In this document: in pieces, positions 2,791-33,700 of the stretch | Layout: each line of letters starts with the position of its first letter | Numbering within the stretch: the first letter of the stretch is position 1 | Source: Mesorhabditis belari | Lineage: Eukaryota > Nematoda > Chromadorea > Rhabditida > Rhabditidae | Reading direction: 5' to 3' | DNA length: 64,000 nt | NCBI GenBank assembly: GCA_958450365.1 | Contig: CAUEEP010000891.1 | Coordinates: forward strand, 124,001 to 188,000 | Position numbers and translations under genes: made by a program | The notes under the pieces: generated by a model | Database searches by the model: none | What the model saw: the letters and a program-made list of their open reading frames with translations, nothing else | Told to the model about the DNA's origin: nothing

Positions 2791-2841
2791 AATACCCTAG
2801 CTCTCAAATAAACATGATTTGAATGATTATTGTATATTATA

Positions 2842-4099
2842 TTAGGTTGGTAAAAAAGAAATGAGCGTCGTGTTTGTTGATTTGTATTTTATTCACAGTA
2901 AAAGATTTTTTTAAATAGTTTATTCTATTGGAAAGAGCGTGTTCTTGCGCATCATTTGATATATAATTTGTCTATGTTTACTTTGTTTTTTTACAAGAAA
3001 GAGTGCTTAGAAAATCTCGGACCAAACAATTTCGCTTGCGGGCCTGCTTGTGGTATGAATTTAAGCAAGGCAAATCGGCTGCTGAAGCTCATCGCGCTCT
3101 ATCTCAAGTGTTTGACGAAGATGCTCTATCCGAAAGTCAGTATAAACGATGGTTCCAGCGCTTCCGAGACGGCGACGAAAGCTTGGAAGACCAAAAACAC
3201 GGGAGTCGACCTCAAATCATCGACAACGACGCATTGAAGGAAACCATTGAGTCGGATCCACGCCAAACCACTCGCGACCTGGCAGAACAGTTCGGCTGCA
3301 CTCATGTCACCATTGAGAACCATCTGCATAACATGGGCAAGACGAATAGATGCGGAAAATGGGTACCGCATAAGCTATCCGACGCAAACAAGGCGGCACG
3401 CATCGCAATCGCCGAAATTCTCACTCACCGCGCCAAGAACAGTGGGTTTTTCGACTCCATTGTTACGTCGGATGAGAAGTGGATCCAATACGACAACACA
3501 GCAAGAAAGCAAGGCAGTGGTTGGACCCCGTTGAAGCTTCAAAACCGACTCCAAAACCGGACATCCACGGAAAAAAGGTGATGCTTTGTGTTTGGTGGAA
3601 CAGTAAAGGCCTGGTGTACTTTGAGGTTCTGGATTCGGGTCAAACAGTTACGGCGAACCTCTACCAAGGCCAATTGGACCGCGTGGGCCAGGCGCTGCGA
3701 CGTCAAGGTGTGGATACGACATCGACAAAATTCCTCCACGACAACGCTCGGCCGCATGTCGCAAAAATCACCCAGCAGAAAATTGAAGAAATGGGCTGGG
3801 AAGTCCTGCCTCATCCGCCATACAGCCCAGACTTGGTGCCTTCCGATTACCATCTGTTCCGATCAATGCACCACTCCTTGGCCGAGAAAAAGTTCAAGAA
3901 CCGCGACGAGGTCCAAATTTGGGTGTCCAACTTCTTCGAGTCGCAGCCGGTCGAGTTCTTCAAGAAGGGCATCCATTCTCTGCGTGAACGTTTCATTGAT
4001 GCAGATGGCGAATACCTTTTGGATTAATGTATTGTTATCTTGTTTTTATAATAAAATAAACTTTTAACGAAAACGCGCATTTCTTTTTTACCAACCTAA
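2842..4099 (+). mobile_element. mariner element, family B, copy 1
   Basis: A 1258-bp element with ends TTAGGTTGGTAAAAAAGAAA and its inverse, flanked by TA at 2840-2841 and 4100-4101. The paralogous block at 10811-11150 has the empty site (one TA, no element), which fixes the boundaries and the target duplication. A near-identical second copy is at 25175-26431. Confidence 0.97.
3003..4027 (+). pseudogene. mariner B1 transposase, frameshifted
   Basis: Plus-strand DD34D transposase: N-terminal HTH region beginning LRKSRTKQF, then [18 protein letters not shown] and SPDLVPSDYHLF. Compared with the 25-kb copy it has two extra bases (AA) near 3507, which shift the frame just after the first catalytic Asp, and it lacks nine bases near the C-terminus. 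The downstream half stays open in another frame to TAA at 4025-4027. Confidence 0.93.
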
Positions 4100-4167
4100 T
4101 ATTATTGCTCAAAAAAGATAAGCACCTCCGAAAAACTTTGCTTTCAAAATAGCTCCGCTCATAATTA

Positions 4168-10160: not shown

Positions 10161-10740
10161 TATTTGAACACAAGCACTTTTATGTCGAACTTTACTTTTT
10201 TGCTATTTTATTTTCAATCTCCTTTATTCGCTGCAATAGTTTTTCTTTAGGTTATTTACTCCCAGTCCATATCGGAAAGTAATCATCGATCTTCACAAGA
10301 ATCATAAGAATTAATTCCGTTTTCTTTGGGAGCGATAAATTTTTAAGTGCACATCAAGTGGGCTTAAATCAGGTGAATTTTGAGGCCATTCACCATGAGC
10401 GATAAAGTCGGGAAATTCAGCAGAGCACTATTGTTGAACCAGCTTGGCCTTATGCGGAGGCGGAGTCTTATTGAAAGCACCAGGGATTGTTTCCAAAATG
10501 AGAAAGGCTCCAAGGTTTTACCACGTCTTTTAAAATTGTCTCTAACTAGAGATTTCCATTTATTTTCACTCCTGAATCGACGAAAGCAAGCGGAGTTTTT
10601 CCATTCGATGTTATTCCGCCGCAAACCATTACAAAAGCTGGATGTGCATTTTTTTTAACGATTATTCCCTTTAAGTTAGCTTCTTAAATGGGTTTAACCA
10701 AAATTCGATCGTTTTGATTATTTAAAACAGCTTCAATTGT
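10160..10740 (-). pseudogene. rearranged Tc-type transposase remnant
   Basis: The block 10364-10624 (-) matches 16011-16271 (-) almost base for base and encodes a piece of a DDE transposase (NGLKIHLI, SLVLSI). Close by at 10270-10310, in plus orientation, is the N-terminal segment SPYRKVIIDLHK of the same family. In the 15.8-17.4 kb copy both parts are on one strand, so this copy has been internally inverted and deleted. Confidence 0.7.
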
Positions 10741-10810
10741 GAAAATTGTTCCGACAAACATATCCAGAAACCGTCTAACACATACTTTCGATATTAGAAT
10801 AGTTGGGATG

Positions 10811-11150: not shown

Positions 11151-11527
11151 AAGAAATGTTTGAGCCGACAAGGACTGTCAATCTTTCCTTGCTCTTTTTT
11201 CTGCTTGTGTATTGTTCCTCTTTAAACGCTAATATTTTGTTATCTTGTTTTGTTTTGCTCCTACCAGTCAATTTAAGTTAGAAAATGAATATTTGGTGGT
11301 TAAAAATGGTTTTGGCTCTAGTTTTTGGCCTTAAAAAGCGCCCCAATAATCGATAGCTTGGGTTCAATATAGTTGAGAAATTTTTTTGAAAATGGTAAGG
11401 GTTATTTCCACCACATGGTTATTTCCGGACCTTTCAAAATTTCAAAACCTTGCCTTTCAAAATTTCAAAACCTTCCCCCCCCTGGGTACGGGCCTGCCCT
11501 GTAGTATCCTCAAAAATATCTGATTTA

Positions 11528-11859
11528 TTGGGTTGGTGCATTGAAAACTGCGAGACTTTGAAATAAAATTTATTCAACATAAAACCATAAATTCATTCCA
11601 AATAATTTCCATTATTATTGGCTACTTCTGCCCATTTTACAGACAATTTGCGGATTCCTCTTTCGTGGTAGGATTTTGCTTTTGAATCGAAAAACTTTCA
11701 AAGCCAATTTTTGACTGCCGCTTCCGAATCTAAGTGTTTTCCCGCAAGCTCATTACTCATGATCCGGAACAAATAGTAATCAGAAGGGGCGAGGTGCTGT
11801 TGTTTTCTTTAGCTGCGAGTCCCGCAAAATAACCGGCAGTTTTCAATGCACCAACCTAA
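11528..11859 (-). mobile_element. mariner A internal-deletion derivative
   Basis: Both mariner A termini remain (TTGGGTTGGTGCATTGAAAA and inverse), but about 930 bp of the transposase is gone, leaving 332 bp. It sits at the same place in the left arm as the longer mariner A2 in the right arm, so the insertion predates the arm duplication and the deletion came later. Confidence 0.9.
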
Positions 11860-12096
11860 TGCATCTTTACCAGAATGTTTTTTTGAATCATAATACTTTT
11901 TAATTATTGGTTGTTAATAAAGATTTCGATTAAATAACTCATCGTCAGGTTGGAAAGTAAATGAAAAGATAATAAACACTTTTATATGTTCTCTGCATTC
12001 AGAAAGATAGAGATAGGTTTATCGTTTAGCAGAATGATAACAACTTTAGAAAATTAAATTGAAAGCATCAAAACGGCAATAGAGAAACAAATGTTC

Positions 12097-15062
12097 TTAC
12101 TCAGTTTTCCCTCGAAACAATATTCTCGAGAGGAAGATCTGCTTTCCCTCGTGATCGACGAGACAAAACTTTGAGGGTCGCGGCGATTCTTTCGGTTCTT
12201 TCTCAGGATCAATCAACAGGAATTTGTGCTTTTCGACGGGCAAATCCCGTAAATATCTTCGTAATTGCCTGACAGGTAACTCATGGATTTTCCCAATTAA
12301 CAAGTCTATGTTCTGAGCGAATCGGACACTAAACGCGGGAATCGTCTCGAAATTCTCGTAATTGACCGGATGATCCAATAGCACTAAATGGCCCTTTTCC
12401 TCCTGAAAGTTCGGCACGAAAAGCGTCGGGAAATAATTATTTTTCTCAAATGAAAAATTCTCCGCATACTTCAAGATACACTGATAATTGATGTGATTCG
12501 ACGAAAAATGTTCCATGGCTGTGCCCAAATCGTTCCAAACAACGAAAAAGTTGGATGAGTATTGTAGCTCTTCTTTTGTCGTGCACTCAAAGTAGTCAAT
12601 AAAAAGTTTTGGTGGAAAACTTCCACTAATGTTTACTCTCTCGGTAAAAGTGTCTTTAAACGCTTCTAGCATCATATACGGATCGATTGGGTAATTGCCG
12701 GTGAAATGCAGTTGATCGGCGTGGCTCGTGAATGTAAACACTCCATCCATTGCATGGACATCGCTCTGGCAGTCTTTCGCGATGAACGTCTTCCCGCGGT
12801 GCCAATGTCCCTTCAGATACCGGGCTTTACTCAGATCCTTCGTGACCATCAACACGATCTCTTGAATGTTGTCGTGCCCCTCGACGAGCAGCCACTCCTC
12901 TTTGAGCACCGTTGATAAGTAGCACTCAAAGTAGAAGCGCGCCAAATAAAACGAGGTCTTTCCAGCCGAGAATTCCCTAATCTTTGAGACCATATTCGTG
13001 GACTCTATCCAGAACAACGAGAACCTGGTGTCTTTTATGAGTTCTTGAAAGTAGCGGCTCATTTCCTCGGCTTCCCACGCAAAATCGGCAAGCAAAAGCG
13101 CTTCGAAGAGCTCTACTGGATCGGTTGATTGCGCTAAGTCCATAAATCGGGTGGTTAATGCGAGATGTTCGTGAAAGAAATAGACCTTTTGCTGGGCCTC
13201 GGTGATCATTCTTGGAAGGATTTGATAGAATTTGATTTGATTCTCGCTGCTCATCTCATTGAATATTGTGGTCAATCTTCCCACATCTTCAATCCGATTG
13301 AAGCGTCTCAAATTCGAATTAGTGTTCGGGGCCTTGTGGACGAACTCTTGGCGAGTCGATTCATTGCTTTCTGGTGCTTCTTCTGTCATCGGATCGATCT
13401 AGAAATTATTGTAATTGTGATGCTTTTTTTGAAATACCGTGAATGGTAGATTTTCACTTTTTAAATCAAGCATCAAGAAACTGCTCGACTTCTCCTCATC
13501 CAAACTTCTCCCAGACCCGAATGGCGGTAGTAGAACTCTTTGCTTTTCATCGATTATTGGCAAAAATTCGTATCCTTTCACAAGTGCGTTTTCCTGAAAT
13601 CGATTTTGATGTACAATACATAAATAATACTTCAAAATGACTCCAACCTCTAGGATGAGTTTCACAGCCTTGAGTACATCTTGAGGCTTAGGACGAGATC
13701 CACGATCAAAGCTCGAACAACTGTAAAAGCAGAAGCTTGATGTAGCAAAAATTCTTAAACCTAACAATAAGCTTTTGCAACTCTTCAATGCATGTCGGTG
13801 GTTCCAACTTCTGCAGAACCCGGAATAAGATGTCAATAAAGAATTGTGTCGTATTGAAATTATCCTTCGAATCGTATTTCGCATAGACACGACTAGAAAC
13901 GTAAGATGTTTATTAGGCAAAATCGCGAGTGACCTTCGTTCGAGGGTTTCCCAAAGCACCAATCCCACCGCATAGACATCATTTGCATGGGAGATCTGAA
14001 AACTATGTGCCTTGTTTATATAAAGACCGGCTTTAAAGTCATCAATCTCATTTGAACACTTAGATAAAAGTTCACAAACTTAATCGCCACGTCTATGCTA
14101 AGGAAATATAACAAAAAAATCAATGATACTGCTCGCTTTGTACCAAGAAAAACGCAAACTTGAAAGGAATATTATTGAGCCACTGCTTCTGCTAATTAAA
14201 AGTTCAGACCTTTCGATCAACATGCATATTTTCCGTGATCAAATCCGGGCTGATATATCGATAGGTGCCGTGAAATGTGCCCGAGCATGTGACCTCACAA
14301 TCTCTTGTACTCCCGAAATCGCCGACCTTCAAATCGAAGCTTTCCTTGACAAAAATGCTAAAAAGAATCTTGGAAGATTAGAAGAAACGCTACGAAGATT
14401 CGAACTTTTCAAGCTTTATATCGCCGTGAACTATTGAGCGTCGATCGAGGTACTCGAGCACTTCGAACAGCTGCTCAGCCCAGCAAAGCACCGTTTTGAT
14501 CGAATAGGAAATCGATGAACCGAGCACCACTAAAACAAAAAAAAATAACTAATTACTAAAGTAAAATCCTAAAAAGCTTGTATTATTTTATTTTACTTTT
14601 GCATAACTTTTTCTTTGAGGAAGGTCCGATTTCCGACTTTTTTTTTGAGAAAAGTCCGATTTTAAGCTCTGTTTAATCCTGCAAACCTTTAAGAAAATAC
14701 TTTTGATTTAATAGTTTTATTAATTTTTTGGCTATCAAACAAATACAAAACCAAATCCGACCTCTCTTCAGACCTCTCCTCTCGCAGTACTCCAATTCGA
14801 TCCCAAACCCCGGAATTCCCATCACAATATCCCGAGTCCCGATGTAGGCAACAATATTCTTATGGCTGATTCTCATCATTATTTCTTTTTCCCTTTCAAT
14901 ATTCTTCCTCGAGATCTCATATTCGACTTTACGACCGTTTTTCTGCGAACAATTCATTGTACTGGTAGATGAACCTTTAACTAACCGATTGTTCGCTTCG
15001 ACCAAATGAATAATGCCCGATGAGCCTCCATCAATTATCGTCCAAACCTCCTCCTCATACAT
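12097..15062 (-). CDS. protein-kinase-like protein with novel C-terminal region, 752 aa
   Basis: Nine exons join in one open frame: 14982-15062, 14762-14942, 14406-14529, 14210-14357, 13934-13995, 13761-13892, 13648-13720, 13438-13593 and 12097-13398. Residues 1 to about 275 are a protein kinase fold: Gly-rich loop DGGSSGIIHL, helix C region, catalytic loop HGDIKLEN (Asp124), DFG at 142-144, GTYRYISPDLI, DVYAVGLVLWE and RPKPQDVL. At the beta-3 position the sequence reads VEYEI, so the invariant Lys seems replaced by Glu36. The last 430 residues, in one large exon, match nothing I know. Style is TKL/MAP3K-like. TGA precedes the ATG in frame. The right-arm twin is broken. Confidence 0.82.
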
Positions 15063-15457
15063 TCAAAAGAGAATTTTGCAGTTGCAAGAGAATTGCAAAG
15101 AGAATTGCAAAGAAAATATTTTCTAGAAAAATCCATTTATACGGCCTAACGATGGATTTCTATTGCGTCCATGAAAACACGGAACAAGCGAGGAATGGAG
15201 CTGATAACATGAATCGATTTAGCTTGTTCTTTTTTAGTTCTTTTTGAGCTTTTTCTTTGATGTGTTCTACTAATCTGGAATTACCATATTCACTATTTCC
15301 TTGCATTTTCAGCTTCATCGGCTCTTCCATTGAACGCTCTCGGACTCCATAGACAGTTTTCCTGACAATAATAGTTTTAGACTTTTAGGGATTGTATTTT
15401 CAAGTCATGGGTTCAAAAACGATAGATAAACACAGATAAACAAACGCGTATTTACAG

Positions 15458-15569
15458 TCGGAAAAAGGCAATAAAATCGTGGCAACGTGGAAATGGTCAG
15501 ATGGAAGTGAGGTGAATTATACAAATTGGGGAGAAAGCGAGCCAAACCTCCATAGCAAGTTTGTAAACT
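15458..15569 (+). pseudogene. C-type lectin domain exon, left arm
   Basis: A 112-bp exon-like block bounded by TTTACAG and GTAAGT reads WKWSDGSEVNYTNWGESEPN, the WND/EPN core of C-type lectin-like domains. No flanking exons of a lectin gene were found, so it is probably an orphan exon. It points away from the kinase gene. A mirror copy is at 17920-18031. Confidence 0.72.
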
Positions 15570-15769
15570 GTAAGTCTTATTCTTTACAATAAAAAAGAGC
15601 CAGTCACTCCCAACAAAAGAGCTTTTAGCGTTCACTGTTGCTAAAAAAAGGGCACAATCCTAAATCTGGTGCGATAAAAAAAAGCGTGGGATTTGAAAGC
15701 GCCAAAAAGATTAACATGGGTACGATCTATCTTTAAATCTTTTGAAATTTGAATTTGAATTTGAAAAAT

Positions 15770-17411
15770 TGAGATTTTGAACACTGTTTATTGAGGTAGT
15801 AACAAATACAAAAAACAACAGTAAAGTTCAAACAAGGCTCCTTTAACTTTCACACAGAGTTTCGAACGTTTCATGAAAGCGTCGCACGTTGATCGCAGGT
15901 ATTCGTCATCCAAATCGCTTCAAGCTTCTTGTAGAGGAGCTTTTAGAGAATCCGAACTTTGTGCGGAGCCTTCGTCTCTAAAACAGACCAGACCGAAAAA
16001 TCAAGTGCGCTTAAATCGGGTGAATTTGGAGGTCATTCACCATGAGCGATAAAGTCGGGAAATTCAGCAGAGCACTATTGTTGAACCAGCTTGGCCTTAT
16101 GCGGAGGCGGAGTCTTATTGAAAGCACCAGGGATTGTCTCCAAAATGAGAAAGGCTCCAAGGTTTTACCACGTCTTTTAAAATTGTCTCTAAGTAGAGGT
16201 TTCCATTCATTTTCACTCCTGAATCGATGAAAACAAGCGGAGTTTTTCCATTCGATGTTATTCCGCCGCAAACCATTACAAAAGCTGGATGTGCATTTCT
16301 TTAATGATTATTCCCTTTAAGTTAACTTCTTAAATGGATTTAACCAAAATTCGATCGTTTTGATTATTCAGAAGAGCTTAATTTTGCGACAAAAAGAAAT
16401 TGTGAATAGTTTTTCTATTAGGTTGATGCAAAAGTCTTTTCCATTTTTTTCGTACTTCTGTTAAAAAGTAACAAATTCACCAATTAATCTATAGTTTGCT
16501 CTATAAAAAAAGTGTTTTTTTGTTCAATTTGCATCTTTTTAAATGAATTTCGGTTCACTTTCAAGCAAATTCGAGAGTGAAAAACGCCTTTTTCGTAAAA
16601 ATCTATAAAAAACTCTACGGAAAAATTGGCTGAATGAATTTCTCTGAAATTTTGGCGAAATATCAAACTTTTTTTTCTCTATCTTTTATCTATTGACACG
16701 AAGATAGGTTTTCTTTAGCTAAGGTGTCTAAACCGCATCATCGAGTTAGCCCTTTTTGACTACCCGACTTCATACTCTCAAGAAAATCCAGGCATAAAAT
16801 ATTTTTAAACCCGTTTTAATGTTATTTTGCAGAAAAATAATTGGTTTTTCTAATGAAATCAACCGTAGTTTAATTGGTGCATTTGTTGGCTTGAAACGGC
16901 AGACGAAAAGGAACAAAAAGACTTATGCATCAACCTAATATTTGAATACTATTTGAGAGTAACGGCCATCACTGAAGCGTTTAATCAAGCTTGCACTTAA
17001 TCACTTTTCCATCATCGGCTCGGTAAGACTGACCCACATTCAACTGCTGTTCACGTGGAACCCTTCCCCACTCTACTCTTTTGCCTTTTATAAGGGTACA
17101 TCTTGAGCTTCTTTTTGACAATTCTTCCAACCGAATCCTTACTAATTCCAAGCTGTTGGGCAAGTTTTCTAATCGACCGCCTTGGGTTACGCTTGATCCT
17201 TTTTCGAATGATATTGACAAAACGAGGAGAAGTTGCACTTCGTTTGCGTCTTCTTCCAACTCAATCCCTATAACTTCCAAGCGTTTTAAATCGACGAACG
17301 GCCGCTTGGACTGTTCTTCGAGAAATCCCGAGCTGTTTCACAATGGTCTTCGTCGACAAGTCTTTCTTGTGAAGATCGATGATTACTTTACGATATGGGC
17401 TGGGAGCAACC
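15770..17411 (-). pseudogene. Tc-type transposase, decayed, filling the spacer
   Basis: Minus strand. An N-terminal part from ATG near 17411 (MVAPSPYRKVIIDLHKKDLS, then a second HTH with GISKDSVGRIVKKKLKMYPY) has a stop and frameshifts. The C-terminal half appears at 16271-15830, with SPDLSALDFSVWS as the remnant of its last catalytic region. The two halves are separated by a MITE (16418-16938). The family matches the elements at 8882 and 30430. Confidence 0.75.
16418..16938. mobile_element. mariner-type MITE nested in spacer transposon
   Basis: Ends TTAGGTTGATGCAAAAGTCT and its inverse, TA duplication on both sides (16416-16417 and 16939-16940), 521 bp, no open transposase. It splits the decayed transposase and so is younger. 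Confidence 0.9.
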
Positions 17412-17919
17412 ATAGCAAATAACCTAAATAAAAACTATTGCAGTGAATACAGGACATTGAAAATAAAATAAAATAGCAATAAAAGTAAAGTTCACTACTA
17501 GTCTATAGTTTTCAAAAAGATAAAAAACCAGGCGCAGAGGTAATTTTGAATTTCGCGACCATTTAAGAAGAATTTCAGCTCAATTTTCTATTGTTCTAGG
17601 ATTGGAATTTGTGACTTTTTACCCCTAGAGACAGCTTAGTCGAAAAAATTATGGTAGGAAGTGGTCTCACTAGAGTACGCACCATGTCGATTTGTCTGTC
17701 TGTTTGTCGGAAATTCCGTTGGCCCCTTTATATTTGTTCAATCTTTCTGAAATTTTGTTAATAAATAGATCGTACCCATGTTAATCTTTTTGCCTTTTTC
17801 AAATCGCCCGCTTTTTTTATCAGATTTAGGATTGTGCTCTTTTTGTAGCAACAGTGAACGCTAAAAGCTCTTTTGTTGGGAGTGACTGGCTCTTTTTTAT
17901 TGTAAAGAATAAGACTCAC

Positions 17920-18031
17920 AGTTTACAAACTTTCTATGGAGGTTTGGCTCGCTTTCTCCCCAATTTGTATAATTCACCTCACTTCCATCTGACCATTTCC
18001 ACGTTGCCACGATTTTATTGCCTTTTTCCGA
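17920..18031 (-). pseudogene. C-type lectin domain exon, right arm
   Basis: Mirror copy of the exon at 15458-15569, 112 bp, on the minus strand, again between TTTACAG and a GTGAGT donor, with the same WKWSDGSEVNYTNW core. No further lectin exons recognised. Confidence 0.7.
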
Positions 18032-18700
18032 CTGTAAATACGCATTTGTTTATCTGTGCTTATTGAAGAACTTCTACCGCATTTCATCAAGCGAAAAACA
18101 CCACATAGCTGCATACTAATAAAAAAAGAGTTTTGCTCGATTCAGGTCCGGCAGGTCAGGTGCATGCTAAATGGTAGGCAATGCAGTATTTCCTTTTTTT
18201 TAAGTTTATAGAGAAATTAGTATTTAAAGGAAATTTAAGAAAATTAATCACTGTCATTGAAAGTATTTCTGAGCTCGATTGCTTTAAAAAGTCTTATGTT
18301 TATAAGTTTTTTTCCCATTTTAATAAAATAGAGTTAACATTTTACACACTTTTTGAATCTGTGACTTTAAAATCAATCCCTAAAAAACTAAAACTATTAT
18401 TGTCAGGAAAACTGACGATCACTATGGAGTTCGAGAGCGTTGAAATGGAAGAACCGATGAAGCTGAAAATGCAAGGAAATAGTAAATATTGTAATTCCAG
18501 ATTAGTAGAACATATCAAAGAAAAAGCTCAAAAAGAACTAGCAAAGAACAAGCTAAATCGATTCGTGTTATCAGCTCCATTCCTCGCTTGTTCCGTGTTT
18601 TCATGGACGCAATAGAAATCCATCGTTAGGCCGTATAAATGGATTTTTCTAGAAAATATTTTCTTTGCAATTCTCTTGCAACTGCAAAATTCTCTTTTGA

Positions 18701-21700
18701 ATGTATGAGGAGGAGGTTTGGACGATAATTGATGGAGGCTCATCGGGCATTATTCATTTGGTCGAAGCGAACAATCGGTTAGTTAAAGGTTCATCTACCA
18801 GTACAATGAATTGTTCGCAGAAAAACGGTCGTAAAGTCGAATGCGAATGAGATCTCGAGGAAGAATATTGAAAGGGAAAAAGAAATAATGATGAGAATCA
18901 GCCATGATAATATTGTTGCCTACATCGGGACTCGGGATATTGTGATGGGAATTCCGGGGTTTGGGATCGAATTGGAGTACTGCGAGAGGAGAAGTCTGAA
19001 GAGAGGTCGGATTTGGTTTTGTATTTGTTTGATAGCCAAAAAATTAACAAAACTATTAAATCAAAAGTATTTTCTTAAAGGTTTGCAGGATTAAACAGAG
19101 CTTAAAATCGGACTTTTCTCGAATTACCAAGAAAAAGTTATGCAAAAGTAAAATAAAATAGGATTTTACTTTAGTAATTAGTTATTTTTTTTTGTTTTAG
19201 TGGTGCTCGGTTCATCGATTTCCTATTCGATCAAAACGGTGCTTTGCTGGGCTGAGCAGCTGTTCGAAGTGCTCGAGTACCTCGATCAACGCTCAATAGT
19301 TCACGGCGATATAAAGCTTGAAAAGTTCGAATCTTCGTAGCGTTTCTTCTAATCTTCCAATATTCTTTTTAGCATTTTTGTCAAGGAAAACTTCGATTTG
19401 AAGGTCGGCGATTTCGGGAGTACAAGAGATTGTGAGGTCACATGCTCGGGCACATTTCACGGCACCCATCGATATATCAGCCCGGATTTGATCACGGAAA
19501 ATATGTGTACTGATCGAAAGGTCTGAACTCTTAATTTTACATCACAAAGAATTTATAAATACTGTTGTAAGCAGTAGATCAATAATGTTCCGTTCAAGTT
19601 GGCGTTTTTCTTGGTACAAAGCGTGCAGTATCATTGATTTTTTTGTTATATTTCCTTAGCATAGGCGTGGCGATTAAGTTTGTGAACTTTTATCTAAGTG
19701 TTCAAATGAGATTGATGACTTTAAAGCCGGTCTTTATATAAAAAAGGACCTAGTTTTCAGATCTCCCGTGCAAATGATGTCTATGCGGTGGGATTGGTGC
19801 TTTGGGAAACCCTCGAACGAAGGTCACTCGCGATTTTGCCTAATAAACATCTTACGTTTCTAGTCGTGTCTATGCGAAATACGATTCGAAGGATAATTTC
19901 AATACGACACAATTCTTTATTGACATCTTATTCCGGGTTCTGCAGAAGTTGGAACCACCGACATGCATTGAAGAGTTGCAAAAGATTATTGTTAGGTTTA
20001 AGAATTTTTGCTACATCAAGCTTCTGCTTTTACAGTTGTTCGAGCTTTGATCGTGGATCTCGTCCTAAGCCTCAAGATGTACTCAAGGCTGTGAAACACA
20101 TCCTAGAGGTTGGAGTCATTTTGAAGTATTATTTATGTATTGTACATCAAAATCGATTTCAGGAAAACGCACTTGTGAAAGGATACGAATTTTTGCCAAT
20201 AATCGATGAAAAGCAAAGAGTTCTACTACCGCCATTCGGGTCTGGGAGAAGTTTGGATGACGAGAAGTCGAGCAGTTTCTTGGTGCCCGATGGAGAAGAT
20301 CTACGATCCATGGTATTTCAAGAAAGCACCACAATTACAATAATTTCTAGATCGATCCGATGACAGAAGAAGTGCCAGAAAGCAACGACTCGCCTCGTCA
20401 AGAGTTCCACATCCACAGGGCCCTGAACACTAATTCGAATTTGAGACGCTTCAATCGGATTGAAGATGTTGGAAGATTGACCACGATATTCAATGAGATG
20501 AGCAGCGAGAATCAAATCAAATTCTATCAAATCCTTCCAAGAATGATCACCGAGGCCCAGCAAAAGGTCTATTTCTTTCACGAACATCTCGCATTAACCA
20601 CCCGATTTATGGACTTAGCGCAATCAACCGATCCAGTAGAGCTCTTCGAAGCGCTTTTGCTTGCCGATTTTGCGTGGGAAGCCGAGGAAATGAGCAGCTA
20701 CTTTCAAGAACTCACAAAAGACACCAGGTTCTCGCTGTTCTGGATAGAGTCCACGAATATGGCCTCAAAGATTAGGGTATTCGCGGCTGGAAAGACCTCA
20801 TTTTATTTGACGCGCTTCTACTTTGAGTGCTACTTCTCAACGGTGCTCAAAGAGGAGTGGCTGCTCGTCGAAGGGCACGACAACATTCAAGAGATCGTAT
20901 TGATGGTCACGAAGGATCTGAGTAAAGCCCAGTATCTGAAGGGACACTGGCACCGCGGGAAGACGTTCATCGCGAAAGACTGCCAGAGTGATGTCCACGT
21001 AAGTTATGGAGTGATTACATTCACGAGCCACGCCGATCAACTGCATTTCACCGGCAATTACCCAATCGATCCGTATATGATGCTAGAAGCGTTTACCAGG
21101 GAACGAGAAAAGTTACTGAATCAGGCAGTGATTATTAGAAATAAAATGCGGAGACTGAATGAGATTCGTTCCATACCAAAATTCCTGGATATTGGATCAA
21201 AGCTGCCGATTCCGAGCTATATTTTTCAACTACGAAATCCTCCCCGAATACCATGTCGTCATAAAGGAATTTGCTCAAAAAAGCAATGGCCAAAAGACAC
21301 TTTTACCGAGAGAGTAAACATTAGTGGAAGTTTTCCACCAAAACTTTTTATTGACTACTTTGAGTGCACGACAAAAGAAGAGCTACAATACTTATCCAAC
21401 TTTTTCGTTGTTTGGAACGATTTGGGCACAGCGCTGGAGCAGTTTTCGTCGTATCTCAACAAATCTCAGCGTATCTTGATGTATGCGGAGAATTTTTCAT
21501 TTGAGAAAAATAATTATTTCCCGACGCTTTTCGTGCCGAACTTTCAGGAGGAAAAGGGCCATTTAGTGCTTTTGGATCATCCGGTCAATTACGAGAATTT
21601 CGAGACGATTCCCGCGTTTAGTGTCCGATTCGCTCAGAACATAGACTTGTTAATTGGGAAAATCCATGAGTTACCTGTCAGGCAATTACGAAGATATTTA

Positions 21701-21853
21701 CGGGATTTGCCCGTCGAAAAGCACAAATTCCTGTTGATTGATCCTGAGAAAGAACCGAAAGAATCGCCGCGACCCTCAAAGTTTTGTCTCGTCGATCACG
21801 AGGGAAAGCAGATCTTCCTCTCGAGAATATTGTTTCGAGGGAAAACAGAGTAA
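18701..21853 (+). pseudogene. second kinase-like gene, frameshifted
   Basis: Same nine-exon layout as the 12097-15062 gene. All later exons are open (HGDIKLEN, DFGS, GTHRYISPDLI, DVYAVGLVLWE, RPKPQDVL), and the last exon ends at TAA 21851-21853. In exon 2 four extra bases near 18842 give TGC-GAA-TGA, stopping translation at 18848-18850. The last exon holds about 67 additional in-frame residues (basic, including RNKMRRLNEIR and CSKKQWPK) after LEAF that the left copy lacks. The long open C-terminal exon suggests recent loss, or a product starting downstream. Confidence 0.78.
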
Positions 21854-22108
21854 GAACATTTGTTTCTCTATTGCCGTTTTGATGCTTTCAATTTTCTTTG
21901 CTGTTTCAATTTAATTTTCTAAAGTTGTTATCATTCTGCTAAAGGATAAACCTATCTCTATCTTTCTGAATGCAGAGAACATATAAAAGTGTTTATTATC
22001 TTTTCATTTACTTTCCAACCTGACGATGAGTTATTTAATCGAAATCTTTATTAACAACCAATAATTAAAAAGTATTATGATTCAAAAAAACATTCTGGTA
22101 AAGATGTA

Positions 22109-23196
22109 TTAGGTTGGTGCATTGAAAACTGCCGGTTATTTTGCGGGACTCGCAGCTAAAGAAAACAACAGCATAGAACCAGCTGAAAGGGGGGTTTATT
22201 TATTCAACATTTCCCCTAATTATTGCAAACAATTATGCTTTCAGCTTTTTATTTTTTGGGTGTTTTTCTTCACTTCTATTGCACTCGACAATCTGCCACC
22301 GGGACGTATTCGTCATGTCATGCTTCATGAGTTCCTACAAGAGCACCGTGCAGGTTTGGCAGTTGCTAATATTAAAAAGATATATGGGGAGGACTCACCT
22401 TTTGAAAGAACGTGTCGATTATGGTTTGCCAAGTTTCGATCTGGGGACAAATCTTTGAAAGATGCAGAGGGCCGTGGCGCGGCACCCCAACTGGATGATT
22501 CCAAATTACTCGAACTCATTACCAACGACCATCGGGTATCATCGCATGAATTGGGAGAAGAGTTAGGGGTTGATCATGCTACAGTGCTAAGGCACCTTCA
22601 TACCCTTGGATTTAAATCGAAACTTGGGGCTTGGGTACCCCATGACCTCAATAACCCCCACAAGTGGCAGCGCGCCTCCATCAGTGCCGCTCATCTCTCA
22701 CGATACGAAAGGAAATCCTTTCTTCCTCGAATCGTGACAGGAGATGAGAAATGGGTTTTATTTGTGAACTTTTGGAGGAAGCGGCAATGGGTGGGGCCAG
22801 GCGAGAAACCCGAAAGTGACCCTAAGCCCGATTTGCACCAGAAGAAGTTTATACTCTGCGTTTTCTGGGATATGGAGGGAGTGATGTACTGGGAGTTGCT
22901 GGATAGCAAGACGACCGTTAATGCAATCAAATACAGTGAACAGTTGGGAAAGGTGAATGAATCCCTGAAGAAGAATAGGCCCTCCAAGTCAAAGATCGTT
23001 CTCATCCACGACAACACGCGCCCTCATGTTGCCAAACTGATTGTTCTAAAATAAACAGCCTTGGTTGGGAACTTTTGGCGCATCCACCATACAGTCCGGG
23101 CCTCGCCCCTTCTGATTACTATTTATTCCGTACCATGTTAATGAGTTTGCGGGAGAGCACTTCGATTCGGAAGAAGCAGACAAAAATTGGTTGCAA
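22109..23196 (+). mobile_element. mariner element, family A, copy 2, 3'-truncated
   Basis: The left end TTAGGTTGGTGCATTGAAAA is intact. Transposase is open from about 22122 to 23054 and includes GDEKW and HDNTRPH. A one-base deletion then shifts the frame just after LIVL, and SPGLAPSDYYLF follows in another frame. The right terminus is missing: sequence jumps near 23196 into the C-run also seen, inverted, near 11480. At the codon where copy 1 is nonsense this copy has CGA. Confidence 0.9.
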
Positions 23197-23345
23197 GGCG
23201 CTTGCCCCCCCCGCCGAAATTTTGAAAGCTCCGGAAATCACCATGTAGGGGACCCTTACCATTTTTAACCACTAAATATTCATTTTCTAACTTAAATTGA
23301 CTGGTAGAAGCAAAACAAGATAACAAGCAAAACAAAACAAGATAA

Positions 23346-24736: not shown

Positions 24737-27700
24737 ATGATAGGTCTTTGGATTCAAATCCTACTCCTCATTCCCTTGTTAACCGCTCAAAATGTCACCA
24801 TTCAAACACCAATGGGCTCGGTTACGGTAAATTAGGCATAAAATTTCATTTTATGTTGTCTTTTAGGGATTTCGAGTAGATTACGGCAACAATACATCCA
24901 ATTTGTACTATGGAAAGGGGGTTGTCTTCCTCGGGATCCCATATGCTCAACCACCCATCGGCAATCTAAGATTTCAGGTGAACCATGAGTTTTGATGGGG
25001 AAATAGTAGGAGAGAGGATAAAGATATAAAGTATGTATTCTTGACGTGTACATGTAGTATATGCGTGGTAGTCAGTGTTCATGAACCCATCAATTTCAGC
25101 TCCCACAATCGCTGAATCGCTATCGGACTTCTCCTCTAGATGCGACACAATATCCGTGAGTCAATTTGAAACTATTAGGTTGGTAAAAAAGAAATGAGCG
25201 TCGTGTTTGTTGATTTGTATTTTATTCACAGTAAAAGATTTTTTAAAATAGTTTATTCTATTGGAAAGAGCGTGTTCTTGCGCATCATTTGATATATAAT
25301 TTGTCTATGTTTACTTTGTTTTTTTACAAGAAAGAGTGCTTAGAAAATCTCGGACCAAACAATTTCGCTTGCGGGCCTGCTTGTGGTATGAATTTAAGCA
25401 AGGCAAATCGGCTGCTGAAGCTCATCGCGCTCTATCTCAAGCGTTTGACGAAGATGCTCTATCCGAAAGTCAGTATAAACGATGGTTCCAGCGCTTCCGA
25501 CGAAAGCTTGGAAGACCAAAAACACGGGAGTCGACCTCAAATCATCGACAACGACGCATTGAAAGAAACCATTGAGTCGGATCCACGCCAAACCACTCGC
25601 GACCTGGCAGAACAGTTCGGCTGCACTCATGTCACCATTGAGAACCATCTGCATAACATGGGCAAGACGAATAGATGCGGAAAATGGGTACCGCATAAGC
25701 TATCCGACGCAAACAAGGCGACACGCATCGCAATCGCCGAAATTCTCACTCACCGCGCCAAGAACAGTGGGTTTTTCGACTCCATTGTTACGTCGGATGA
25801 GAAGTGGATCCAATACGACAACACAGCAAGAAAGCGGCAGTGGTTGGACCCCGTTGAAGCTTCAAAACCGACTCCAAAACCGGACATCCACGGAAAAAAG
25901 GTGATGCTTTGTGTTTGGTGGAACAGTAAAGGCCTGGTGTACTTTGAGGTTCTGGATTCGGGTCAAACAGTTACGGCGAACCTCTACCAAGGCCAAGTGG
26001 ACCGCGTGGACCAGGCGCTGCGACGTCAAGGTGTGGATACGGCGTCGACAAAATTCCTCCACGACAACGCTCGACCGCATGTCGCAAAAATCACCCAGCA
26101 GAAAATTGAAGAAATGAGCTGGGAAGTCCTGCCTTATCCGCCATACAGCCCAGACTTGGCGCCTTCCGACTACCATCTGTTCCGATCAATGCACCACTCC
26201 TTGGCCGAGAAAAAGTTCAAGAACCGCGACGAGGTCCAAATTTGGGTGTCCAACTTCTTCGAGTCGCAGCCGGTCGAGTTCTTCAAGAAGGGCATCCATT
26301 CTCTGCGTGAACGTTGACGACAAGTCATTGATGCAGATGGCGAATACCTTTTGGATTAATGTATTGTTATCTTGTTTTTATAATAAAATAAACTTTTAAC
26401 GAAAACGCGCATTTCTTTTTTACCAACCTAATAAATCCAGTAAAAGTAATGCTAGTAAACAATTTATTATGTGTTATTCAAAATTTTGAGATGATCTTAT
26501 TGTTAGTTTTTTATAATCCTGTTTAGAGCCGCATGTCCCCAAGCAAGAACCGAAGGAATCCCAGGAGCTCTTGACGCTCCATGCACGAAACAAAGCGAAG
26601 ATTGTCTCTATCTCAACGTGTACACACCTGATGTAAGTTCATAGCAATGCTAAAAGGTTTTTGTCGGACTCTTGTAGTTTTATTTAATGAGTCGTTTCTT
26701 GACAAGAAAATCCAGTGATTGATATAGTTACGCGTAACTATATCAATCACTGGATTTTCTACGTAATTACGTACAAAACTTGACTCCTCATTGCCCAAAA
26801 TTACTTCTCGAGTTTTATATTAATTAATAGTGCGGGGAAAAAACCAAACTGGAATTAAATCTGACGTAGTTTAACGTAGTTTATGCAAACACGTCATTAG
26901 TCCGGAGTTAATCCAATAGTACGTATTGCAAGTATTCCCCATAAATTCCCTATCGGATTGATGTCAGGAGATCGAGCGGGTCAGTCCAAAATTGCAATGT
27001 TGTTGTTGTTCAGCCAGTCTCGGGTGTCTCCGGCTCGATGAATTGACGCGTTATAGTATTGAAACAAATCGGGAACGGTTGGATTTAGGAGCAAAAACGG
27101 CAACAAGCAATTGTTCAAGATATCTATCTAGTCATCCGATTCGAAACCATCTTCAGAGCGACCGTTCCATCAGCACAAAAGGTGCCCCAAACCATCACAG
27201 AAACACCGCCAAAGTTTCGGGTTCCAAACACCATCGGATCACGTCGAAGATCCCTCCAATAGTAGTCAACACCATTGGGACCATCCCAATTCCATTTCTT
27301 CTCATCGGAAAAGACCACCTAAACGCAAAAAAAATAATAAAACATAAGCGGCTTTCCAACCATAGACCAATTCTGATTCATATGGACCTTGGCGAATTTC
27401 TTGTGCAAAGGTGTTACGGCCAGTTGCTTGTTCAACAATTGTCGATCGATATGTGGATTTTCCGTGACGGCTCACCAAATTGTCGACTTTGAAGAGTCGA
27501 TTTTCAGTTCCATTTTCACTTAAGCGATCGTTTTTCCGTGGATGTTGTTCACAATATGGCGTCGAGCTCGTTGTGTAAGCTTTGGTTTTGGTCCTGGCTT
27601 CTTCTTTAGTGCAGATACGGCCTTCGACTTGATATAATTTCACGATCGGCCCAAATCTTTTGCGATTTTCCTTATTAAGTTTGCTTCTCTGTCAATCTTC

Positions 27701-30700
27701 GGACGCGCATCAATCTGGCCTTTCTCATAATCCGTGAGCGGCTTTCCGTGTGCCATCTACCTGGAAATTAACAAAAAATTATAAATTTAATAATAAAATA
27801 TGCACAACAAAACGAAAAATTTCAAATAACAACAGCAAAGGCGGGTGCGTTTAAGAATTTGACAAGGTTGATTTACCAAAAAGTTTTTATTTTGAACATT
27901 TTTACTTTTTACAGTATGCTTATTTTTAGCGTTTTCTAGATTTTCAAACACGCTCTTTCCAATAGAAAAAGAATAATAGTTGCTGCGTTGTTAAAAATGC
28001 AAAAATCTTTAGTTTTGAGGGTGCTCTTAAGAATTTGAAACACACTGTAGTTAAGCTCATCATTACTCAGCAACCAAACAGAATTAATCAAAATACTAAT
28101 TCTTTCAGACAACAACTCCCAACAAGTACCCAGTAATGATCTGGATTCATGGTGGATCGTTAGCAGCTGGTTGTGCAAAGGAATATCCGTACAAAGTAAG
28201 AGGTTGTTGATGATAAATCAGGTTCACCCTTACTATTAGGTTGGCAACTGAGTAATTTCGATTTTTGATGTTGTACTTTTCCTGGCGAGCTATCCAAATT
28301 CAATCAATTCTTTTATGTTGATTTAGTAGTTGATGATAAACTCTACACACAGCTATGCATAGAAATGTTTGATCGAATTTGAATAGCTCGCCAGGTAAAG
28401 CACAAGATCAAAAATCGAAATTATTAAGTTCTCAACCTAATATTAGGGAGCAATTCGTAACTTGGTGTCTCGTGGAGTTGTGGTTGTCGTCATTCAATAT
28501 CGTTTGGCTGCTCTTGGCTTCTTCACCACAAATACCACAGATTTTCCGGCAAATAGAGGACTATTGGATCAAGTACGTAAAGAATTCGCTTGTAAATAAA
28601 ACTAAAATATTATAGATCGAAGCATTCAAATGGGTACAAAATAATATTGCTTCTTTTGGTGGGAATCCGAATCTTGTCACTTTGTTTGGACAATCAGCTG
28701 GAGGGATCTCTATCTCGGCACACACATACTCGCCGTTGAGTAGAGGTGAGATTTGCTGGTAACGAGAAATTTGTTTGGCTCGTAAACCTGGGTTACGAGT
28801 CAAATAAAAATACCGTATGGACAGTTAAGCTAAAGTAACAAACTGATCATTGGAGTCTGAGAATGATTACATAAGGTGCTATAATTATCTTTAGCTGATC
28901 CCAAAACAAAACTGGATAGGCGCATTAAACGTTAGAAAAACTGACAAACAACTTATCGATTGAACTGGCAAATGTTTGTTAATATTATACTGATATTATC
29001 TGATAGGTGATACGGTACATTCCAATATAATACTGACCAATCAAATTTATACAGTAGCGGAAATTAACTTAAAAACTTTTTGTTTTTGAACAAGAAACCC
29101 TTTGTTTTCAATTCAGTTAAACTGTAAACCGGTTTCAAAATATATTTTAACATTTGCAAGATAATCCTCATAGCAAACTAAACTTAATGTCTTTGCTTTG
29201 TGTTTTTAATTAACATTTATTCAAAAACCCAACGGCATTAACTCAAAGAGAATCATTGCTTTTCTTTATTCTTAATGTCTTTTTTAATCTACTGTTACCT
29301 AAAGTTTTTACTAAACAAATAACTTTTGTTTTTAGTCGTGGGAAAGAAGAAGCAAATTATTCCTGCAATCAATGATCAATCATGAGGACACGATCGTTGC
29401 GATGCAACAAGCAGGAGACATCAAAAGTCGGATTTCGATAATTTTGAAGGTGCACAAATCAATCGTTTCTCGAATTTTGAAGCTTCATGCTACGCAAGGC
29501 TCTACCATTGCGAAGAAAAACAAAGGTCAACCCAGAAAAAACACTCTTCGAGACGATAATCGGATGACTCTTCTTTCAAAGCAGGACCCAGTGCAAAACC
29601 GCTGTTCACATCCATCAAGAATTACCGGCAACCTTTTGAAATTCTATCAGTTCTTGTACTGTGCAGCGTTGTTTGAATCATTCTGGACTATTTGGAAGAC
29701 GCCCGGCAAAGAAACCATTGATTTCTGCAAAGAACCGCAGACCCCAGGTCAAGTTTGCCATGGAAGATCAGCTTTTGACGCCCACGAAGTGGCTTGATTG
29801 CCTTTTTTCCGATGAAAGCAAGTTTATGATGCTTGGATCAGATGGAATCAAGTTTATTCGAAGGTCAATCAACCAAAGATTTGTAACCAAAGATGACCAA
29901 CCAAGCACTTGCTCGACTGTAAAAGATGGCGGTGGAAGCATAATGGTTTGCGGAGGGTTTTTCTTCATTTTATGTTATAAGTTACCTTGTTTGAAAAGTT
30001 GTTAAGCTAATGTTCGTTACTGTAGCATCCAACAAATAGGCTTTAGTTGGATCAAAAACAAAGAAAAAAGAACAGTCATTGTTCTTTAAAGCAAAAGAAC
30101 AATGACTTTTAATCAGGATTTCATTGTCGGCAATCAAAAACATAAACACATTTGTTCAGGCCTCTTCCATCAAGCTATCGTTGAATCTGGTACAATTTTC
30201 ATGTCTCTTTATGGCTCGGCAAGCAATAGAAATTCCAGTGCAATTACAGCCCAAAACGTTTGTTAGAATTAATAAATTAGTACCTTTCAACAAAATTTAG
30301 CTTTGCCAAATCCCTCAAAATCAGTTTAATCGAGGGAATTTCGGACAATTGAAAACATGCATGAACAACATATCGGTATCAGCTTTTGTGGCTGCGGATA
30401 AGGTATGTAATTATTGTACCTTGTATGTACAGGGTGGGCCATAATTACGTCCTCGAGGGTGTCGCTTGCAAAGTAGATACTTCCTCGTATTTTGCTAACT
30501 AGGAAAAAGCATTTTTGTTGTTTTTCTCTTCAATTCGTTTTGTTTTAAACTTGTTACAATATAAAAATGGTGTTTTTTAAAATGACCAAACGCTCGCTCC
30601 TTCGCCGTTCGAACATCGATCTTCATCGAAAGGGATTTAAGACACGGAAGATAAAGGATCGTCTGGGAGTTAACCCAAGCCTCGTCAACAAAACCATTCA

Positions 30701-33700
30701 ACTTTTTAAAGAGTTGGGGTAGGAAGATGATCGAAAGGGCCGGGGAAGAAAGCGATCGATGACAATTGAAGTCAACATCAAGAAAGTGAGAGAAAGAATC
30801 CGTAACCCTGCGCACCCCCTTCGTCAAATATCACGTGAGATGGGAACCAAGTTGCAGCGAATGGAGGTATTTTTGAGGTCCAATATGTTCTTTTTCTTGT
30901 TAATATTTCAATAAATGCTATTCTGTTCAAAATTTACTTTTCTGGTTTTTTTTGGGTTTACTGGAATTTTTTTACCCTACCGTAAATACTGTAATAGTAC
31001 CCCACCCCCATAATGACGGTGCAGAGTGTTGCGTAGTCTAGCTTTGAACGAGTGTTTCTCGACACTGGTTTATGCTACAATGCGCGCTTAGGTATCAAAA
31101 AATAGCCCTGAATTTCAGCTATTGTTTGATACCAAAGACGCATTTTTGTGGAAGTACGGGCGCTTTGAAAAAAATGAAATACTAAAAAACTTTTCCGACT
31201 ACGCGACTGTACGAGGGGGGTGGGGGTACTATTACAGTATTTACGGTAATTACTACGAGGACGTAGTTATGGCTCACTCTGTATGGTGATAATGAGTTGG
31301 ATGTACACATGTATGCGTATTACCCATATAGCCTATTGCTCCCTCAATATCGAATCTTTCAGGCTGATTATGGAAACTGGTTGATCATTCGAGACAACAA
31401 TTTCTTACCAGGAACCCCTCAATCATTGAATGCTCAAAGAGCAAGGATCCCAGTGATGTACGGAAGTCCAAAAGATGAAGCGGCTCTTCCATGTAAGAGA
31501 AAAGTCAATCTTCAGCAGACTCTTTTAAGAATTGAAATAATTTAGATTTAAAGTTTGCTTAGCCTGCAAAGTATTATAAGCTGTAGCTAGTTCTTCGTAT
31601 TGTAGCTATTTTTGTACTAATATTCTCAACTAAGAAACACTAGTAATTTGAATAGTTACTGATTGTGAATTGATTGTGAATTGCTTAAATTTTGTTCTGG
31701 AAACAGAAAAGGTGAGTCAAATTGTGCCGCCCAATTGACAAACTTACCCAGAAACCCTCAAAACTAGTCAAAATATGTTTCAGAGAAAGTAGTACATAAA
31801 AATAGAAATTCAATGTGAGAAATTATCACTATCAAAATGTTATATGTAGATTAGTTTTAAAAAATCGGTATCAATTCTATGATTATAATTTAGAAAAGTT
31901 GTGTGTGTGTGTGTTTGTTACCAAGATTCCGGCTTAACCATCGAGTTTTATGGTGGGGTAAGTGTGTAAAACTATATAATCGACCCACCGGAACACGAGG
32001 GAAATGTCAGAATTTTGATTTGACAATGTTTTGGCATCAGATTCGCGATTTTGTGAAATTGAAAAACCTGATCGACATTTTGAAAAGAATCATTTTGAGG
32101 GAAAAGGGGAAAAGCCCGAAATTTAACTTCTTAAATGCGAATTTCGCTATGATAAAAGGTTCTGTTTTGAGCTGCATAAGCTGTACAAAATGGCTGATCA
32201 TTTCCATAATTTTAAGCCAACATCCATTTACCTAATTCTCAGTGTACTTCATGATGGAGTCCGGAGTCCGTTTCGAAGACTTCAATCAATCTTTCCTTCA
32301 ACGAACCTTCATGAAAGAGAACGTGTTTTCTCCTTATCAACGTAATTTGAATGCTGCTTGGAATACAATTAGTCAAGTAAAATCATACAGTTTTTGCGGT
32401 TTTCAAAAACTTTTAGAGCTATCTAACGAACAGTCAAGCGAATAGCAACAACGCATCGTATTGGTGGTTGAAAACTTCTGATGTTAGTAAAAAAAATTAG
32501 TTTATACTAGCAATTTTCATCATTTAGATCTTCTCAGCTTCGAATTTCACTCAATGGATTTGGAAAGATGTGCAATTGCAACTAGCAAATCGGAACCCGA
32601 TGGTCTACTTGTACGAACAGACATATGGATCAAAGATCATGCAAAGAAAAGTCGGAGATGAAGTCACGAGAAAGCTCAATGGATATAGACGTAGGTTTTA
32701 AGGTAAATGACTGGTTCAATGAAGGGAAACTGATAGAAAAACAGAGTACGAATAGTATAGTTACAAATAGTTACAAATAGTCCAGTTAGCTTACATATTA
32801 CTGCGGTTAACAAATCTATTTATATGATCGGGTAAATCAAGCTATTACATTACTTACAAATTCCAAAGCATGGGGGATCCCCCGCCGCCTTCAAGCAAAA
32901 CGAAAGGGCAAGAAAACCAAAAAAGGAAAAACCGGGAGGGGGAAAAGGGCAAGGCGGTCCAGCAAAGACGAATAAAAAAAGAAGAAAAAAAAGATTTAAT
33001 AAGCAGCCCCCGGAGCAAGGGATTTAAAAGGAAAAATTTTAAGAGCAAGTTTGGTGTTAGAAGATCCAATATCTATTTGTTTGATGTACATACTGGAGGA
33101 GTGCTACGTTTGTACCTTTTGATGCTTAAATAATGCCAAGGCAGGTTATGTGTATCAATAAAACTGAATGTATCCAAGCGAAGATCTCTAACTTCTAAAA
33201 ACTCTTTTCGTTGAGTAAAGTTCATCACTACATCATTAACTTGAAAATTTCTCATTTCGGGGAGGGCAAAAATCCTGAAAAACCCTCTTTTTTGCCCTGC
33301 CCGATATCATTTCAATCTTACTAACAGCTGGGAATTCCAAGAATTACAAAATTTCCTCTGCGAATCCGTTTCGGAGGAGGTAATAGCCTCTTTACCGAAC
33401 CTGGACCTGATTGCAAGATTCCGTTTAACTATAATTTTTTTCAGCTGTCCCACACTCTGCTGAAAACCCCTTCATCTGGATGTTCGAACCAATCTGGAAT
33501 GCTGAAACACAAGCGAATCGAGTAATAAACCACTCCATTAATTATGCTGTTTGGTCTCATTTACAGGTTGTCCCATTCGATCACACGTTAGCAAATGCTT
33601 ATGGTACTTGGTGGACGAATTTTGCGAAATTCGGGTGGAGTACGACTATAAATCTTTTAAACCCAAGAATTTTCAGTAGACCAACCGTCGACAACTCTTG

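Follow-up and report, generated by a model that had tools for sequence, protein, structure and literature searches.

Palindromes, in which blocks of genes are repeated as reverse complements on one chromosome, have been described in parthenogenetic animals, and it was proposed that in asexual animals they slow down mutational decay (PMC7953838). That survey itself concludes that palindromes have no major role, and its table attributes two palindromes with six genes to Mesorhabditis belari (PMC7953838). In the parthenogen Folsomia candida, palindromes likewise consist of inverted gene blocks, and a wide range of Ks values was read by the authors as counter to concerted evolution (PMC5490193). 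Palindromes of mammalian sex chromosomes undergo arm-to-arm gene conversion and have arms described as more than 99% identical (PMC8981503), while among the youngest same-chromosome duplicates of C. elegans a significant majority are described as adjacent and inverted (cited in PMC4546093).

Here we analysed a 64-kb stretch of the genome of the asexual nematode M. belari (hereafter the window), in which an earlier note had described a large inverted repeat. The inverted repeat is confirmed, as both long matches in opposite orientation (12657-15419/21095-18350, 11795-12657/22173-21293 and 15426-15730/18063-17765) and an alignment of the two arms bear out an inverted duplication. Homology is continuous between arm A (11795-15737, plus strand, 3,943 bp) and the reverse complement of arm B (17758-22173, minus strand, 4,416 bp), i.e., over 3.9 and 4.4 kb, and ends on both sides of a 2,020-bp spacer with transposon matches (15738-17757). 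The analysis also reproduced the outline proposed in the earlier note (11235-23345, with arms of about 4.5 and 5.6 kb around a 2-kb transposon spacer), as well as its two kinase-like genes, two lectin exons and several indels between arms. A 1-kb probe from arm A matched the two arms alone, indicating that the homology is not merely due to dispersed repeats. The sole further inverted self-match in the window (at least 300 bp, E <= 1e-20) is a mariner pair at 1038-2134/23197-22107.

The locus is a palindrome, or inverted segmental duplication, in that its reverse-complement homologous blocks lie close together on the same contig, as do the gene blocks described on single chromosomes of other parthenogenetic animals; the palindrome passages of that survey are without arm mosaics, which are a feature of the locus here (PMC7953838). 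Its arms each hold a single kinase gene, unlike the many genes reported for the arms of Folsomia candida (PMC5490193). It shares with the described mammalian palindromes mirror-image arms and what may be signs of exchange, but its arms are short, only 96.65% identical over aligned columns and include one damaged gene copy (PMC8981503). The copies are adjacent and inverted as in the cited C. elegans duplicates, from which the locus differs, as far as these are described, by its bimodal divergence and the transposon-filled spacer between the copies (PMC4546093). Mirror-image duplicates are a known kind; what is unusual here is that near-identity is interrupted by a small number of short patches that differ strongly.

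Both arms contain a kinase gene that points outward and an orphan partial C-type-lectin exon, one of each per arm. The arm B gene is intact (18701-21853, plus strand), and its nine joined exons translate exactly to the 817-residue protein P0001. The arm A gene (12097-15062, minus strand; public model P0002, 680 residues) is damaged, so that the full multi-exon gene which the earlier note saw in both arms is present in arm B only. Compared with arm B, its exon 2 is short by 4 bp (between 14920 and 14921) and its exon 9, in frame, by 198 bp (between 12656 and 12657); a single open frame (14673-15062) spans exon 1, intron 1 and exon 2. Both products are kinases with an unannotated C-terminal region and exceed the cut-off of the Pkinase profile (PF00069; 117.6 bits for P0001 and 88.1 bits for P0002, cut-off 31.7). 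The 198-bp coding block (21096-21293 of arm B, plus strand) has a corresponding segment in distant paralogues, and was therefore probably lost by arm A. The possibility that the block is an intron gained in arm B was set aside, as excising the nearest GT...AG interval would, on our reading, change the frame and the paralogues code for the corresponding segment. Among the matches listed, no other sequence exceeds 39% identity to the exon-9 protein, and we found no literature on this kinase family, judging by the beginnings of abstracts in a search that mostly did not extend to subscription papers. The lectin exon of arm A (15458-15571, plus strand, 38 residues) is mirrored in arm B (17918-18031, minus strand) with one residue changed; the arm A exon scores 18.3 bits against Lectin_C (PF00059), below the cut-off of 22.6, and covers profile positions 52-82 of 107. 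The arm alignment further reveals a block of about 280 bp confined to arm B (18065-18344).

Divergence between the arms is strongly mosaic. The alignment contains 130 substitutions in 3,879 columns (3.35% divergence) and 16 indels, and a model with two states fits it better than a single rate (lnL -514.0 vs -569.3), the low state accounting for 43 differences in 3,403 columns and the high state, made up of ten short islands, for 87 in 476. The same separation is seen in non-coding columns (17/1,354 vs 45/276), while the four-fold sites that differ (6/239 vs 2/13) are too few to decide. Substitutions per 100 columns have a variance-to-mean ratio of 4.13, compared to a permutation mean of 0.95, and such a ratio was reached in none of 5,000 permutations; this also holds after merging differences within 3 bp (ratio 2.55, 0/5,000) and for non-coding columns alone (ratio 4.06, 0/5,000). 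The longest identical run is less striking than the clustering, being reached by 4 of 5,000 permutations and by 65 of 5,000 after merging. The islands are 12-88 columns long and, while making up 12% of columns, contain 10 of the 16 indels; seven islands include an indel and three do not. Within the coding sequence, codons 1-280 have zero synonymous differences, and the remaining 40-codon windows range from 0 to a dS of 0.18. The densest patch (12469-12520) consists mostly of amino-acid changes, codons 681-720 carry eight non-synonymous differences and no synonymous ones, and exons 8-9 hold three indels that each keep the frame. At the 28 differing positions of exon 9, paralogue residues agree with arm B at 14 and with arm A at 6. 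A distant paralogue was considered as donor of the densest patch and rejected; a 71-bp probe from it matched the two arms alone, and thus no other donor is visible.

We lean, by a small measure, towards a history in which a local inverted duplication was followed by gene conversion between the arms that left old islands behind. A segment of about 4 kb with one kinase gene, a 66-bp mariner end and a broken lectin exon would have been duplicated locally in inverted orientation, the inner ends of the duplicate flanking a spacer that a transposon and the MITE nested in it now occupy. Conversion would then have erased differences over most of the length, sparing short old islands, and arm A would have lost 4 bp from exon 2 and the block of 66 codons, such that the pair may be heading for a state in which one gene works and the other decays. 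Arm-to-arm conversion had been raised in the earlier note, and a divergence as strongly patchy as this is the trace it would be expected to produce, yet two sequences alone are no proof, and arm identity lies below the 99% mark of homogenised palindromes. The mosaic fits conversion and may also reflect clustered mutation around indels or polishing artefacts. A second, less probable account is a recent inverted duplication, diverged by about 1.3% throughout, in which several complex local events such as template switching or indel repair created the islands with no gene conversion. The low state, 3,403 of the 3,879 columns at 1.3%, agrees with such an age, the islands are short and mostly indel-bearing, arm A appears derived at 14 of the 20 residues that paralogues polarise, and the changes of the densest patch, heavy in amino-acid replacements, are not what old neutral islands predict. 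Many complex events would however be needed to place ten dense clusters in 4 kb, three of them without an indel; all three indels of exons 8-9 keep the frame, and clustering stays strong once neighbouring differences are merged. Indel-rich islands are expected if the islands are old, and also if mutation clusters around indels. From these two sequences alone, conversion is inseparable from recent duplication with clustered mutation.

An origin driven by transposons, through reversed-ends transposition or template switching between mariner copies, is unlikely in our judgement, and would be compatible with later conversion. Near-identity terminates inside a mariner, and the only close pieces found of the spacer element (10353-10741, 95%; 10187-10301, 83%) are located some 1 kb beyond the outer end of arm A, one in inverted orientation, but insertion into a pre-existing palindrome accounts for the same facts, and a non-systematic look met no target duplication or intact end tying the element to the breakpoints. 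Still less probable is an assembly artefact, whether a head-to-head joining of the two alleles of a single locus or a mosaic from short-read polishing, which could blend near-identical arms. Low-state divergence equals the heterozygosity reported for M. belari, about 1.3%, and in parts of the JU2817 assembly alleles are reportedly held apart by indels (PMC10456839); among the matches scored, neither the gene nor 26400-31000 had an allelic contig. Against this, the copies are inverted within one contig that continues for about 136 kb to the left of arm A and 753 kb to the right of arm B, and the flanks of the arms within the window, which should be homologous if these were alleles, have nothing in common but transposon copies and short matches. 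From a fold-back chimeric read one would expect near-identical arms rather than 3.35% divergence with 198-bp and 280-bp indels, and a misassembly of two alleles thus appears disfavoured. Finally, opposite arms could pair as a long hairpin RNA if transcribed through, and it is very improbable that the locus silences its own gene family in this way: the kinase genes point outward from the centre, hence transcription of the genes in the usual way does not run through both arms, and the remaining members of the family among the matches listed, at no more than 39% protein identity, are too distant for silencing in trans. The hairpin suggested in the earlier note accordingly found no support, and nothing indicates a function of the palindrome itself.

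Taking conversion further, the arms of this palindrome, in a nematode that is asexual and retains heterozygosity, may still be exchanging tracts hundreds of bases long, with decay overwritten in one copy of the gene and short old islands persisting at about 18% divergence; we regard this only tentatively, as somewhat short of an even chance. If true, the duplication would date back much further than one would judge from its average identity. Taken alone, the locus is one more inverted duplicate of an ordinary kind with a moderately interesting mosaic. Since the palindrome is small, one of its gene copies is intact and the other damaged, and ten strains of the species have been sequenced, it could make both arm-to-arm conversion and its direction measurable.

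The spacer holds a low-copy element remnant (15841-17493, approximate limits), which we take to be Tc1/mariner-like and on the minus strand from transposase motifs. Its segment 15841-16309 matches C649 and C350 at 64-65%. Nested within it is a MITE of about 526 bp (16415-16940) with terminal inverted repeats at 16416-16491/16940-16866, of which at least 39 other copies occur at 97-100% identity (best 40 of 2,234 candidates).

The near-identity claimed for the arms stands within 11795/22173, and ends there inside a mariner. The mariner at 11526-11860, internally deleted, lies across the outer limit of arm A and contributes only its last 66 bp (11795-11860) to the arm; the one at 22107-23197 lies across that of arm B and contributes only 22107-22173. 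Inside the arms, all seven differences of this 66-bp end from the majority of 20 copies are common to A and B; outside, the A and B pieces have six and seven differences from the 20-copy majority, one in common, and neither is much closer to its partner than to other copies. The outer pieces consequently look like independent mariner sequence, and a single recent duplication of the full 4.5- and 5.6-kb arms was rejected for these parts. Further out, evidence for common descent appears mixed. A dispersed short repeat left of arm A (11249-11373), found partly also at 23258-23337, has at least 40 other matches at 84-92% (best 40 of 304 candidates). For its B copy, identity reaches 98% with other copies (58 bp) and is 91% with the A copy (80 bp). 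The match between A and B is nevertheless the top-scoring one, since it extends beyond the part matched by other copies, and another piece, of 58 bp, is common to both outer sides (11386-11443/23268-23216, 83%).

Self-comparison and global alignment bear out the large inverted repeat proposed in the earlier note, with two arms in opposite orientation. When arm A (11795-15737, forward strand) is aligned globally with the reverse complement of arm B (17758-22173), the two differ by 130 substitutions in 3,879 aligned columns (3.35%; 74 transitions, 56 transversions) and by 16 indels, the largest of which (198 and 280 bp) are both absent from arm A. Divergence is distributed as a mosaic. The variance/mean of substitutions per 100 columns is 4.13, and remains 2.55 after merging differences within 3 bp and 4.06 in non-coding columns alone, values reached by none of 5,000 permutations in each case. 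The longest identical runs (336 columns overall, 338 in the merged set and 220 in non-coding columns) are reached by 4, 65 and 28 of 5,000 permutations, respectively. A two-state model (lnL -514.0 vs -569.3 for one rate) separates a low state, with 43 of 3,403 columns different, from a high state, with 87 of 476 columns different in ten islands of 12-88 columns.

Each arm contains a kinase gene directed outward. The full multi-exon gene described in the earlier note is present in arm B, where nine joined exons give exactly the 817 residues of the public protein model P0001, but not in arm A, whose copy is 4 bp short in exon 2 and 198 bp (66 codons) short in exon 9; the two remaining coding indels between the arms, of 3 and 6 bp, are in frame. 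The 198-bp difference is probably a loss in arm A, because distant paralogues contain the corresponding segment. Likewise, arm A is probably the decaying side, since at the 28 differing exon 9 residues the paralogues side with B at 14 and with A at 6. If intron 1 (43 bp) stays unspliced, arm A has a single open frame that covers exon 1, the intron and exon 2 (14673-15062), the 4-bp deletion turning the intron into 13 extra codons net, in frame. As the deletion thus keeps the frame open, a retained-intron product is possible and the damaged gene may remain readable. The C-terminal part of P0002, the public M. belari model of this copy, corresponds to arm A's open frame, while its start differs from the exon 1-intron 1-exon 2 frame. 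The lectin exons reported previously do occur once per arm, but each is a partial C-type-lectin fragment with a domain score below the cut-off, and a simple motif search found no others in the 64-kb window.

P0001 is a protein kinase by Pfam profile search (Pkinase, 117.6 bits), and its C-terminal ~500 residues have no Pfam match. The best relatives that a protein search gave outside Mesorhabditis belari are weak, first a MAP3K13-like protein (26% identity, E 5e-11) and next NEK3, and searches of the public protein collection with the C-terminal region, of limited sensitivity, found no protein from outside M. belari (2 and 3 proteins, all M. belari). Within this genome the family is large: among the 86 of 271 candidates scored, the C-terminal exon (20351-21853) has at least 87 matches, at least 84 of them outside the two arms, with identities of 23-39% and many of them lying on contigs C701, C672, C59 and C675. 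Kinase pieces lie close by at 15 of 17 family loci (L007-L023) at E <= 1, 14 of these at E <= 0.01.

Gene conversion between the arms would account for the long near-identical tracts, which span introns and exons, and the islands left between them. For the 747 codons aligned without gaps, dS and dN come to 0.039 and 0.029. Synonymous and non-synonymous differences number 1.5 and 21.5 in exons 1-8 and 16 and 29 in exon 9, and codons 1-280 have no synonymous difference. Against conversion, however, seven of the ten islands hold an indel, codons 681-720 carry 8 non-synonymous and no synonymous differences, the four-fold-site contrast is small (6/239 in the low state vs 2/13 in the high state), and low-state divergence equals allelic divergence. 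In M. belari, an auto-pseudogamous, asexual nematode, heterozygosity is given as ~1.3% across ten studied strains (PMC10456839).

That the arms are two alleles of one locus, misassembled, or that short-read polishing created the mosaic, seems to us quite improbable. In parts of the assembly of strain JU2817, indels did block the merging of both alleles (PMC10456839). Here, however, the copies are inverted within a single contig, and their flanks inside the window have only transposon copies and short matches in common. Moreover, a 1-kb arm A probe matched only the two arms in the whole 207.6-Mb assembly, and neither this probe nor the listed matches of the exon 9 protein revealed a further close gene copy. 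A survey of parthenogenetic animals attributes to M. belari 2 palindromes, which affect 6 genes (PMC7953838), the youngest same-chromosome duplicates of Caenorhabditis elegans are adjacent and inverted in a significant majority, as stated in PMC4546093, and Folsomia candida has palindromes with a wide Ks range, read by the authors as evidence against concerted evolution (PMC5490193). The locus therefore belongs to an already known class of inverted duplicates, and the mosaic is its sole notable feature.

At either end, the outer limits drawn in the earlier note (11235-23345) take in a mariner element and a short repeat, both of them common. Probing with the mariner gave at least 39 further long matches (88-93% identity) and at least 3 short ones (best 40 of 1,252 candidates), and the short repeat has at least 40 others at 84-92% (best 40 of 304). 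Measured against the majority sequence of 20 copies, the A and B mariner pieces have all seven differences in common in the 66 bp nearest the gene; in the 90 columns farther out there are 6 in A and 7 in B, of which one is common and also found in 4 of the 20 copies. Judged by these counts, the near-identical part of the arms terminates within the mariner. An older, larger duplication, its outer part left unhomogenised, is possible given the mixed short-repeat evidence. The A-B short-repeat match scores highest because it is longer, running past the limit of most other copies' matches, and a second piece is common to both ends (11386-11443/23268-23216, 83%). Yet arm B's repeat reaches 98% identity with other copies (over 58 bp), against 91% with A (over 80 bp), and over 87 columns A has 5 differences, B 18 (inflated by columns outside its repeat) and one is common. 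Alternatively, common repeats may have been inserted twice, in mirror order.

The spacer (15738-17757) holds a MITE (16415-16940) with at least 39 other copies at 97-100% identity (best 40 of 2,234 candidates), which suggests recent spread. On both sides it is flanked by a low-copy remnant that we take, from transposase motifs, to be Tc1/mariner-like; the supporting element matches are weak (64-65%). Only two close pieces of this remnant were found, one at 10353-10741 that is 95% identical and in the same orientation, the other at 10187-10301, inverted and 83% identical, so that 10187-10741 is a rearranged piece with one end inverted beside the other in direct orientation. The right flank (26400-31000) has repeat matches and one 91% copy on the same contig, C670, of which the window covers 124001-188000 (best 40 of 585 candidates): 29047-30153 recurs ~37 kb downstream at C670:190444-191530. 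At 26929-28049 lies a ~1.1-kb repeat with many genome-wide copies at 85-88%, in many of which ~205 bp of one end is repeated in inverted orientation. Finally, 2840-4101 and 25173-26433 form a mariner-type pair, 97.5% identical and in direct orientation.
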